A DNA stretch of 64,000 nt, taken from Halanaerobium saccharolyticum subsp. saccharolyticum DSM 6643 (GTDB lineage Bacteria > Bacillota > Halanaerobiia > Halanaerobiales > Halanaerobiaceae). The position numbers were made by a program, and so were the translations under genes. The notes under the pieces are model-generated. The model had not been told where the DNA came from, made no database searches, and saw only the letters and a list, made by a program, of their open reading frames with translations. Shown one piece after another: positions 55,320-58,472 of the stretch (position 1 is the first letter of the stretch; each line of letters starts with the position of its first letter). The stretch spans positions 186,001 through 250,000 of the forward strand of contig NZ_CAUI01000023.1 in the NCBI RefSeq assembly GCF_000350165.1, in the 5' to 3' direction.

Positions 55320-56147
55320 CTATTTATAATTTATATTATCAATTTTTGCTTCATATAAAATATATTTATCAAAATTACTTTCAATTTCTACAATAATTGA
55401 AGCTGGTACTTTAAAATTATTAATATCAATATAATTTTCATAAATAGCTTTCAGTGATACTTTGTCTTCTCCAAACAAAAACTGAGAACTGCTGATAGAA
55501 TTTAAAGTTTTATCTTCATTAAATTCAAATATAAAATCAATACTATTAGAAACTCTGTTTAATTTGACTAATGTCCGATTACCACTCATTACTGCTAAGT
55601 TGATATTACTACTCCCTAAATAATAATATGGAAAATAAACTGCATCAATTATCATCCTACTTTTCAAAAATAATTCAGCCTGATCACCATAAACAGATTT
55701 CTGATCTTTGGCACCCATTTTTTTAAATTCATAAACTCTTTTATCACCAAGTAATACTTCTCTCAATTTATTAAATATAATTTTGTTTTCTTCAATAACC
55801 CATTCACTTACAAACTCGCCAGTTCTTAAATTATAAGCTGACTTCATTTTAAAATCATGCATCTCACCATATTTCTGCTGACGATATTTACCCGAATAAT
55901 TAATTCTAACGTGAGTAGATAAATTTCTGCTATTAGGAATGCTGTATTGGATATACCTTCTCATAGGAGCTGGAATAGAAATACTACTGGGGTTTTTAAT
56001 AGAAAAACTATCACTAAGAGAATATTCTCTCTGCAAAACGCTAATATCTTGCTCATATTGATAATCCGAATACACATTTGCAAAAACTGTATATATAGAA
56101 AATGATATAACAACAAAAATAAGTATAATAAATATTTTTTTGAGCAA
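55320..56147 (-). CDS. Membrane-anchored or exported protein, DUF6544-like, unknown function
   Basis: 275 residues starting at TTG 56147, 8 nt after AAGGGG. One N-terminal hydrophobic segment (IFIILIFVVISFSIYTVFA) would anchor or export it; the rest is beta-rich and soluble. The SIPAPMRRYIQYSIPNSRNL stretch (about residues 60-80) resembles the PAPxRRYxxxxxP motif of a family of unknown function (DUF6544-type); that assignment is by eye and not certain. It is the last gene of the four-gene unit with the small peptide and HD-GYP protein, so an envelope role linked to that signal is likely. Confidence 0.65.
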   Translation of the reverse strand: MLKKIFIILIFVVISFSIYTVFANVYSDYQYEQDISVLQREYSLSDSFSIKNPSSISIPAPMRRYIQYSIPNSRNLSTHVRINYSGKYRQQKYGEMHDFKMKSAYNLRTGEFVSEWVIEENKIIFNKLREVLLGDKRVYEFKKMGAKDQKSVYGDQAELFLKSRMIIDAVYFPYYYLGSSNINLAVMSGNRTLVKLNRVSNSIDFIFEFNEDKTLNSISSSQFLFGEDKVSLKAIYENYIDINNFKVPASIIVEIESNFDKYILYEAKIDNINYK

Positions 56148-56168
56148 GATAATCACCCCTTGTTTATT

Positions 56169-56789
56169 TTAAATAAAATAGCAGATTCGTCTGTTAACTG
56201 CTTTTAGACAAGCTTTAGCTATTGCCAGAGCTATATCATTATTTACATATACAGATCCAACTAATTTTTCCTGCATTAAATTATTATCTAAATTATACAT
56301 CGATAACTGAGCAATTACAAGTTCTTCTTTACCTTTAATTGTAAAAATATCATCCACTACTAGTTTTGCATCAAAATTTAAATATTTATTTAAAACACTT
56401 AAAATTGATCTCCCAATTAATTTTTCAATACTTTCTCCAATTTGAGCTTCAAAACTGTCTTCTGTTCTTTTTTCTCTTATCTTCATCTCTACTTTACAAC
56501 ATGAGCGATTATTTTCTGTGTGAACAGAGATTAATTCTATTCTATCTGTTGAAACATCACTTACATTTTCTTTAAAAGAATCTGCTACCTGAGCAATACT
56601 GATTTTTTTATGATCAATTTTATGATCAGTATGCACCAAACAAATTGTTTCTACATCTCTGACTATTCTTTTGGGATCTCTCTTTTTATCAGCAATAATA
56701 TGTATTTCTTCTATCTTTTCTGAACCAATTAAATTACAGGAAAAAACACCTTCAAGTTCTTGAATAATATCTCTTATCTTTTCATTCAT
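56169..56789 (-). CDS. Hypothetical protein of the HD-GYP unit
   Basis: 206 residues, not recognised. Cytosolic, mixed alpha/beta, perhaps two related halves: TICLVHTDHKIDHKKISIAQV near residue 50 is the most striking stretch and reads like a conserved motif of a family I cannot name. A second strand set (RIELISVHTENNRSCCKVEMKI) leads to a helical part and a C-terminal ALAIAKACLKAVNRR helix. Starts 37 bp after the HD-GYP gene and is 21 bp ahead of the next gene; GGGGAG ribosome site. Probably a partner of the HD-GYP protein. Confidence 0.7.
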   Translation of the reverse strand: MNEKIRDIIQELEGVFSCNLIGSEKIEEIHIIADKKRDPKRIVRDVETICLVHTDHKIDHKKISIAQVADSFKENVSDVSTDRIELISVHTENNRSCCKVEMKIREKRTEDSFEAQIGESIEKLIGRSILSVLNKYLNFDAKLVVDDIFTIKGKEELVIAQLSMYNLDNNLMQEKLVGSVYVNNDIALAIAKACLKAVNRRICYFI

Positions 56790-56826
56790 CTATTTATCTC
56801 TCCCCTTCATAAATTAATTAAGCTTT

Positions 56827-58113
56827 TTAACTATATGATAATTCCATTTCTCTAATTTTTTCTTTACTTTTAAAACTATCATCAAAAAAACCTTTTTTAA
56901 TGAGTTTAATCATTTCTTTTGCTATTTCCGGATCAAATTGTTTGCCAGCACATTTTTCAAACTCTTCTATTATATCTTCTTTAGTCATTGGAGGCTTATA
57001 ACTTCTACCCGTAATCATAACATCGAGCGAATCACAAACCGCCAATATTCTGGCACCAACTGGTATTTTATCTCCTTTAATACCTTCTGGATATCCTCCG
57101 CCATCCCACCTTTCGTGATGATAGAGTATTATATCTAAATCATTATTTAAAATATCAATATCTTTTAAAAGTTCATATCCATATTGGGTGTGTTCTTTGA
57201 TGTCCGAATACTCTTGTTTAGTTAATTTATTGGAGCTTCTTAATATATCATCATCTACATATATCTTACCAATATCATGAATTTTAGCTATACTAATAAT
57301 TCTTTCAGATTTAGCTCGCGATAAGTTCATCTCACCACAAAGATGATAAGTATATTCTGCAACTCGTTCACAATGTCCCTCAGTATAATGATCTTTCGAA
57401 TCAATTACTTTCAGAAAACTCTCAATAATTTGTGTATAAGAATTCATCTGCTGCAGCCTTGAATAAAAGAAATCTTTAATAATGAAGAGCAGAACAATAA
57501 TTAAAAGAAAAAAAACTTTACCAAAATTAATATACGAAGCTAATAATATAAGTCCAATAAAATAAGAGGTAATAAGATTTTTAGAAAGCTCTCTAAAATA
57601 ATTTAATAAAGAAAACTTATTGACATCTTCTCTAGATATATTAATAACTATATAAACTAAAGTATTATTTATTAAAAAATAGATTAATATAGCAGATAAT
57701 ATAGATAACATGGGAAAACTATCCCCATCTAAAATTGGTCTCACTACTCTAAATATTAAAGCGGCAGTGGAAGCTGCCAGAAAAAATACAGACCGATTAA
57801 ACAGAAATTTATACCAAACAAATTTCATGTTTTTAGCAGTATATTCTATAGTACCTATTGCTGCAATTATACCTACCCAAAAAGGGTTTAAAACTACAAA
57901 GGCAGGTATTAAAACAGGTAAGTTCATTGAAGTTGTAATTTCAGTCATTGAATTAAAAAACATACTAAAATTATTTACTAAAATAATTACTATTAATAGA
58001 AAAATGACATTTATTAAATTAAATTCAGAAATATATTTGTAGTTTAATATAATAAAAATGGAAAATGATATTAAATAAACAAAACTCAAGTAAATTTTAA
58101 GTTTTTTATCCAA
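56827..58113 (-). CDS. Membrane HD-GYP domain protein (probable c-di-GMP phosphodiesterase)
   Basis: 428 residues. Residues 1-215 contain about six to seven hydrophobic segments without a recognised sensor domain. From about 230 an HD-GYP domain follows: EGHCERVAEYTYHL, KIHDIGKIYVDD (HD), LYHHERWDGGGYPEGIKG (HHExxxGxGYP) and ILAVCDSLDVMITGRSY. All metal and GYP residues are present, so hydrolysis of c-di-GMP (or a related cyclic dinucleotide) is expected. It starts at TTG, after GAGGAG. It lies just downstream of the peptide gene, and its membrane part could sense that peptide (inference). Confidence 0.9.
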   Translation of the reverse strand: MDKKLKIYLSFVYLISFSIFIILNYKYISEFNLINVIFLLIVIILVNNFSMFFNSMTEITTSMNLPVLIPAFVVLNPFWVGIIAAIGTIEYTAKNMKFVWYKFLFNRSVFFLAASTAALIFRVVRPILDGDSFPMLSILSAILIYFLINNTLVYIVINISREDVNKFSLLNYFRELSKNLITSYFIGLILLASYINFGKVFFLLIIVLLFIIKDFFYSRLQQMNSYTQIIESFLKVIDSKDHYTEGHCERVAEYTYHLCGEMNLSRAKSERIISIAKIHDIGKIYVDDDILRSSNKLTKQEYSDIKEHTQYGYELLKDIDILNNDLDIILYHHERWDGGGYPEGIKGDKIPVGARILAVCDSLDVMITGRSYKPPMTKEDIIEEFEKCAGKQFDPEIAKEMIKLIKKGFFDDSFKSKEKIREMELSYS

Positions 58114-58168
58114 AATTTATCACTCCTCTATTAAAAATAATCTGACAGCAGATTTTCAAAGCCCTATT

Positions 58169-58255
58169 TTACCAATGACTAGAATCTGCTAATGCAGATA
58201 TAGCTGTACCAAAAGTTATTAAAGCTGTTGTAATAGCTATATAAAACTTTTTCAT
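58169..58255 (-). CDS. 28-residue secreted peptide, possible signalling peptide
   Basis: Short gene with AGGGAG 10 nt before the ATG. The product is MKKFYIAITTALITFGTA followed by ISALADSSHW: a basic start (K2, K3), a hydrophobic core, and an AxA-type signal peptidase site (A21-L22-A23). Cleavage there would release the pentapeptide DSSHW. The reading frame stops immediately (TAA). It is the first gene of the four-gene unit, 55 bp ahead of the membrane HD-GYP gene. Such a signal-plus-five-residue gene has no purpose other than export of the tail, or a leader role, so a pheromone-like function is proposed (inference). Confidence 0.65.
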   Translation of the reverse strand: MKKFYIAITTALITFGTAISALADSSHW

Positions 58256-58286
58256 TAAAATTCAGCTCCCTTCGTTATTTGTCTTT

Positions 58287-58350
58287 CTAAGCTCATTTAC
58301 GAAGGTAAGCTAGGCTCATTTTTTTAAGCTAATCTCTCGCTGCTGTCAGA
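58287..58350 (-). promoter_or_regulatory. Leader of the peptide gene with direct repeats and a long-range pairing arm
   Basis: Two copies of CTARGCTCAT (58287-58296 and 58310-58319, 23 bp apart, about two helical turns) precede the peptide gene. TGCTGTCAGA at 58341-58350 is the exact reverse complement of TCTGACAGCA at 58141-58150, so the transcript could close a 10-bp helix round the whole peptide gene. No known riboswitch core was recognised. Confidence 0.4.
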
Positions 58351-58472
58351 TTACTCTTTTAAATAATTCAATATAGTCTTCAAATATCCTTTTTTTTAGG
58401 CAAAAAAACACTTATAATTCCTTTATTAATAAGGTTTACCAGTAATTTTTAGAATATTTTACCACATTAACC

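Follow-up and report, generated by a model that had tools for sequence, protein, structure and literature searches.

The window analyzed here is a stretch of 64,000 nucleotides from contig NZ_CAUI01000023.1 of Halanaerobium saccharolyticum subsp. saccharolyticum DSM 6643, and all coordinates given without a locus label refer to it. Four ORFs lie on the minus strand exactly where the original prediction had placed them: a 28-aa micropeptide gene (58169..58255; MKKFYIAITTALITFGTAISALADSSHW) encoding a hydrophobic leader (MKK...LA) and the variable tail DSSHW, a membrane HD-GYP gene with a TTG start (56827..58113), the gene of a 206-aa protein (56169..56789), and a DUF6544/DUF6920 gene (55320..56147). 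The predicted strong terminator after the fourth gene was also recovered as an intrinsic terminator on the same strand, with an 11 bp stem followed by T6 (55300-55275). The DUF6544/DUF6920 gene, initially counted as a member of the unit, adjoins it in only three of 64 related loci (L084-L086) and therefore lies outside the conserved core, but it is probably part of the same transcript. The core itself consists of an RNA with the peptide gene, the HD-GYP gene and the gene of the 206-aa protein.

No Pfam or NCBIfam family matched the 206-aa protein above the cut-off, in agreement with its first description as an unknown protein. It represents a family of its own, found at 64 loci in GTDB, for which we use the working name DUF206. 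Its model (pLDDT 91) has two domains, one with the common ferredoxin-like fold and one resembling the regulatory domain of LeuA/CMS (residues 82-203; Z 10.1, 112 residues). An assignment of the N-terminal domain as CDF-C-terminal-like was rejected, as Z 8.9 over 67 residues is near background for such a common fold. DUF206 could be a small-molecule sensor or a binder of the RNA repeats described below.

The micropeptide has a conserved leader and a variable tail

Full-length matches to the 28-residue peptide were found in 22 of 61 relatives (the order plus one further family of the class), and each of them adjoins the HD-GYP/DUF206 pair or sits on a contig fragment of this pair. The peptides of these 22 relatives are 28-29 aa long, start with MKK and mostly end with A-[DE]-[ST]-x-x-W(-x). 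Within Halanaerobium, differences in the ORF amount to 91/29/271 for the three codon positions, the third being the most variable, and pN/pS is 0.16. The 28-aa gene is real and deeply conserved, far beyond chance. Loss of the short gene or its tail next to orthologous HD-GYP genes, or a lack of coding constraint, would have refuted the original prediction; instead, both the gene and its W-bearing tail are kept beside these genes, with coding constraint.

Leader and tail behave very differently. A comparison of 43 distinct actinobacterial peptides showed a leader that is conserved as far as the invariant Ala20; the entropy is 0 at this last leader residue and rises to 3.4 bits at the next position. 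An Ala preceding the tail is nearly invariant across the family. The tail itself comprises 4-6 residues and varies within a pattern: 38 of the 43 actinobacterial peptides have K/R at position 23, and a Trp is found near the end in 41 of 54 peptides but is missing in 13. In genomes with two copies the tails differ, for example AWKM and MARL. Comparison of close pairs gave pN 0.020 and pS 0.289 for the leader and pN 0.496 for the tail; since the latter is about equal to tail pS, the rates by themselves do not distinguish relaxed from diversifying evolution, and positive selection is not claimed. Tail composition and length are constrained despite this high pN. A conserved export leader followed by a variable short C-terminal peptide, as in RRNPP/Phr precursors, is thus found in the micropeptide family. 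Arrest or leader peptides of the TnaC or SecM type were also considered and rejected: these are conserved at the C terminus, which here is the most variable part, though Trp near the end is frequent.

The peptide gene is enclosed by a conserved structured RNA

A conserved structured RNA, absent from the original prediction, surrounds the peptide ORF. All its elements are on the minus strand. The outer stem P1 pairs a 5' arm (58340..58358) with a 3' arm carrying a U-run (58133..58151) over 19 bp and encloses the ORF; it scores 42, compared to 30 for the best shuffle, and the fold has a z of -3.4. Each lineage forms P1 from bases of its own; arms such as AAAAAUAUCUGAUGGCAU, GGCCGGGUA and GGGCCAACGCCGUG are each matched by their complements. 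In an arm-swap test on 59 loci, the loci's own arms reached 36.1, versus 18.5 (sd 3.9) for arms exchanged between divergent loci.

Inside P1, three AGC repeats form invariant columns in our alignment A2. Repeat 1 (UUAGCUUA, 58325..58332) has the pattern AGC.UA and reads AGCGRAGCG elsewhere, repeat 2 (GAGCCUAGC, 58309..58317) overlaps the 5' strand of a hairpin around the Shine-Dalgarno (SD) sequence, and repeat 3 (GAGCUUAG, 58287..58294) lies in the loop of this hairpin and has a UAGCG loop as its counterpart elsewhere. The SD hairpin was obtained both as RNAalifold consensus and in the MFE fold; its 5' strand (AGCUUACCUUCGU, 58299..58311) shows compensatory pairs with the 3' strand (ACGAAGGGAGCU, 58264..58275), which holds the ribosome-binding site of the peptide gene. 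The repeats read AGCUUAG in Halanaerobiales, other phyla have AGCGRAGCG together with the UAGCG hairpin loop, and both forms occur together in MAGs of Halobacteroidaceae. A role of the repeats as TRAP-like NAG sites was considered as a possibility. For the UAGCG loop hairpin, 93.5% pairing and 19 double changes were observed, compared to 70% and 5.9 in shuffles. A search against Rfam gave no match in the leader (E up to 5) or in the peptide gaps of 12 other loci.

Just upstream of the 5' arm of P1 lies a SigH-like promoter (AGGATATTTGAAGACTATATTGAAT, 58366..58390, minus strand) with the motif AGGA..T..TGAAW. Of 22 Halanaerobiales leaders, many of which are close relatives, 14 have this motif at fixed spacing just before the arm, with 0.44 expected from shuffles. 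The genome encodes SigH, detected above the NCBIfam cut-off, and from the motif we infer that a SigH promoter may drive the module.

The arrangement between the peptide and HD-GYP genes bears on two leader-type explanations. Plain translational coupling, put forward originally as an alternative role of the short gene, was rejected because the ORFs do not overlap, the HD-GYP gene has its own ribosome site and a stem arm lies between them. According to the second explanation, an attenuation mechanism, translation of the peptide would just open or close the RNA and thereby set HD-GYP expression, with arrest of the nascent chain or at Trp codons as a possible sensor. It would account for a conserved stem around the ORF whose 3' arm mostly begins within 0-30 nt of the stop codon and in many cases has a U-run at its end, and it also agrees with the SD sequence in a hairpin and the frequent Trp near the end. 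But the C-terminal residues needed for arrest are the most variable part of the peptide, the Trp is not universal, the constraint on a hydrophobic leader would be unneeded, and the covariation of tail and sensor described below would be unexpected. We therefore regard attenuation as rather improbable.

Peptide, RNA, HD-GYP and DUF206 are linked across several phyla

A scan of GTDB with the DUF206 alignment gave the 64 loci in Firmicutes, Actinobacteria and MAGs labelled Atribacteria, Chloroflexi, Armatimonadota and Sumerlaeota. Outside the Halanaerobium type, the order of the genes is DUF206, a gap and HD-GYP, and the gap encodes a peptide of 21-36 aa, for example MKRIVLLLSSLAALVLGGGASLRW and MKKVLMVLTSLLALILASGANFSWL. 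Relatives of the peptide in this size range precede orthologous HD-GYP genes in Halanaerobiales, other Firmicutes, Actinobacteria and MAGs labelled Atribacteria, Armatimonadota and Chloroflexi, and almost every complete DUF206/HD-GYP locus in several phyla has a peptide. In one actinobacterial class, 52 of 248 genomes have both RNA and DUF206, without exception side by side; copy numbers match (two and two) where both copies are readable, and an RNA element away from DUF206 was never found in the 248 genomes. The mismatches are few: one case with DUF206 only has an N-run at the site, and the rest are at contig ends.

This linkage bears on a further explanation, a type I toxin-like or dual-function RNA. 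A small membrane-active peptide would then be encoded by an mRNA that forms a stable fold through 5'-3' pairing. In the hok and aapA1 mRNAs, long-distance 5'-3' pairing and a hidden SD sequence surround a small hydrophobic peptide. The element described here shares the long-distance stem, the sequestered SD and the short hydrophobic peptide, and in its general layout resembles type I toxin mRNAs, for instance Helicobacter pylori aapA1 (PMC6733600, PMC8309996). In contrast to mobile toxin loci, it is single copy and, in several phyla, strictly linked to HD-GYP/DUF206; it also differs in its fixed synteny, its other conserved motifs, its hypervariable tail and in having no known antitoxin. A toxin-like RNA is thus very improbable.

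A number of additional genes were observed around the core. DUF5317 (PF17248) follows HD-GYP in 22 loci outside Halanaerobiales (e.g., L110:7129-7737), which are most of those with enough flank, and is absent from the H. saccharolyticum genome. The DUF5317 search also gave matches in two control genomes, those of Thermotoga maritima and Thermus, so that a related system may exist there. In many actinobacterial loci (L127:7146-8396 and similar), the gene right after HD-GYP encodes another HD-domain protein, which is degenerate. In Candidatus Frackibacter, a second HD-GYP gene of the same type (L092:1192-2484) is located 2.4 kb upstream; neither a peptide nor an RNA element precedes it, and its product is a possible orphan receptor. 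A raiA RNA or an S30AE/Hpf hibernation gene lies just before DUF206 in some Firmicutes and Actinobacteria (L141:3887-4110; L127:4121-4744; L140:3847-4380), which hints at a stationary-phase context; the raiA RNA at L141 is a separate RNA upstream of the peptide element. In one MAG labelled Candidatus Sumerlaeota (L109), the module resembles that of Firmicutes, owing to transfer or mis-binning.

The HD-GYP protein combines a catalytic domain with a membrane sensor

The full set of HD-GYP catalytic motifs noted originally was confirmed: the protein matches Pfam HD_5 above the cut-off (2.3e-32, 112.5 bits) and contains the HD and HHExxDGxGYP motifs (HD...HHERWDGGGYP) in an HD-GYP fold. In the AlphaFold model (pLDDT 88.8), the catalytic domain comprises residues 218-415 (56869..57462, minus strand; Z 25.8 to 4mcw), and its HD/GYP residues are invariant in an alignment of 41 sequences. 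The protein is therefore predicted to be a c-di-GMP phosphodiesterase. For the N-terminal sensor domain (residues 26-201; 57511..58038, minus strand), several independent ECF S-components were among the structural matches; that to 4hzu_S has an rmsd of 3.4 over 159/164 residues and a Z of 12.7, just under the caution level of about 13 for helical bundles. The sensor thus appears, as modeled, to carry a six-helix S-component-like fold.

Hydrophobicity over the family places membrane segments at residues 180-196 and 199-213, and the N terminus and loop L3 are rich in K/R. With the HD-GYP domain inside, hydrophobicity and charge would place L3 and L5 of the sensor in the cytosol, and probably L1 too. 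This would be opposite to the outward orientation of these loops in S-components. The peptide tail, in turn, should point outward, given the MKK/MKR N terminus.

The tail covaries with one side of the sensor

We compared tail similarity with the similarity of protein regions after partialling out overall similarity; the permutations used model phylogeny incompletely. The tail tracks the half of the sensor on the L1/L3/L5 side, with p=0.003 in 38 Actinobacteria and p=0.0005 in 16 Halanaerobiales. For the L1 loop alone, a window picked after a first look but before replication in the second clade, p was 0.0025 in Actinobacteria and 0.017 in Halanaerobiales. A second draw of 398 genomes yielded no new elements, so the covariation was replicated in Halanaerobiales instead. 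No covariation of the tail was found with the HD-GYP domain (p=0.93 in Actinobacteria, 0.27 in Halanaerobiales) or with DUF206 (p=0.96 and 1.0, respectively). Nor does the tail track the other half of the sensor, yet the difference between the two halves is not significant in Actinobacteria (p=0.11). The leader gave no signal with the sensor and a marginal one with DUF206 (p about 0.05 in both clades). Among single columns in Actinobacteria, column 57 in L1 exceeded the family-wise 95% limit (z=5.8; limit 4.33), in a run that left out one outlier row and near-invariant columns. The covariation persists against variability-matched control columns and is weaker without close pairs: after removal of the closest 20% of pairs, p for L1 was 0.09 and 0.11.

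Two findings support the idea, as originally proposed, that a species-specific tail is read by the HD-GYP protein: the tail is hypervariable although the leader before it is conserved, and it covaries with the sensor in two clades. Its simplest form, extracellular reading, loses ground: since the covarying face is predicted to be cytosolic and the tail to point outward, a plain ligand acting from outside is not compatible with this arrangement unless re-uptake is assumed. Three solutions are conceivable: re-import of the tail, an unusual placement of the peptide in the membrane, or an error in our reading of the topology. Going by the predicted topology, Phr-like re-import or a tethered peptide would be as likely as extracellular sensing.

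A tethered peptide would be an uncut membrane subunit, comparable to KdpF, CydX or MgrB, whose transmembrane helix packs on the HD-GYP sensor while its tail touches the sensor of the same cell. With a pN/pS of about 0.1, the leader is far better conserved than is usual for signal peptides, which suits such a subunit as well, and so do the fixed peptide length, the strict gene linkage and the tail-sensor covariation. But it is not obvious why the tail of a subunit should be hypervariable between species, the tail and the covarying face seem to lie on opposite sides of the membrane, and the invariant A preceded by G/S resembles a signal peptidase site. We consider an uncut subunit unlikely.

Discussion

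The explanation that we tentatively prefer, with somewhat less than even confidence, is an RNA-gated, signal-peptide-like micropeptide whose species-specific tail is the ligand or partner of the linked HD-GYP sensor and so controls c-di-GMP. We rank it ahead of the uncut subunit, followed by the attenuation leader and, far behind, the toxin-like RNA. According to the preferred explanation, the module would be expressed as one transcript, from a SigH-type promoter in most Halanaerobium loci, and its 5' part would fold around the micropeptide gene. The outer stem would close over the ORF, the inner hairpin would hold the ribosome-binding site, and the AGC-rich repeats would be displayed to a binder, which by pure inference might be the linked 206-aa protein. 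Opening of the RNA would allow synthesis of the micropeptide and insertion of its conserved hydrophobic part into the membrane. Binding of the hypervariable tail of 4-6 residues by the S-component-like sensor would then alter c-di-GMP hydrolysis. Most likely, the tail would be cut at the conserved Ala and secreted as a species-specific pheromone, perhaps acting via re-uptake.

Several known systems share parts of this design. In Rap-Phr systems, a signal-peptide precursor with a tiny, species-variable C-terminal peptide is encoded beside the receptor gene, and promoters are of the SigH type; the peptide is secreted, processed and taken up again through Opp. Enterococcal pheromone inhibitors such as iCF10 and iAD1 derive from precursors that add little to a signal peptide beyond the active peptide, which is terminal. 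In RpfC/RpfG signalling, the fatty acid DSF acts through a two-component relay on an HD-GYP phosphodiesterase. The general scheme of peptide quorum sensing by Rap-Phr (RRNPP) in Bacillus (PMC4147580) and Rap-Phr divergence (PMC5199041) have been described. Our module resembles Rap-Phr in the short precursor gene beside the receptor gene, the species-specific C-terminal variants and the SigH-like promoter. However, no cytosolic receptor of the TPR type was found beside the peptide gene: the partner is a membrane HD-GYP protein with an S-component-like sensor. Moreover, the precursor has only 21-36 aa in all, lies inside a conserved RNA and reaches Actinobacteria. It has the same layout as the iCF10/iAD1 precursors, but the module differs in receptor, RNA, gene order and taxonomic range. 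With RpfC/RpfG it would have in common a cell-cell signal acting on an HD-GYP phosphodiesterase, whereas here sensor and HD-GYP domain are combined in one protein with an attached peptide gene. The sensor (residues 26-201) apparently shares its fold with ECF S-components but is fused to HD-GYP, has an extra helix on each side and an inverted predicted orientation, and no ECF partner gene is present in the unit. A cyclic peptide system of the Agr type, with an AgrD precursor, AgrB protease and AgrC kinase, was rejected, as the peptide has no NCBIfam match and the conserved neighbors are DUF206, HD-GYP and DUF5317.

We know of no described system in which an RNA-enclosed micropeptide is linked to an HD-GYP protein. 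A literature search on HD-GYP with a peptide signal, leader peptide, S-component or DUF5317 returned nothing relevant, which is weak evidence of novelty. A wider claim, which we put forward with more reserve, is that the module represents a new and widespread class of peptide signalling, in which an RNA-gated precursor, hardly longer than its signal peptide, frees a hypervariable tetra- to hexapeptide for a membrane c-di-GMP phosphodiesterase with an S-component-like sensor, together with a new cis-RNA family. A tail that changes in step with the HD-GYP sensor suggests a previously undescribed peptide signalling system. If true, a peptide-to-c-di-GMP circuit would be contained in one membrane protein, it would be present in several phyla for which cell-cell signals are scarcely known (Halanaerobiales, Coriobacteriia-like Actinobacteria, Atribacteria), and a structured RNA family would be defined by the peptide gene within it. 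Even without a pheromone, a conserved RNA-enclosed micropeptide with a tail that co-evolves with an HD-GYP sensor would be an unexplained and testable unit.
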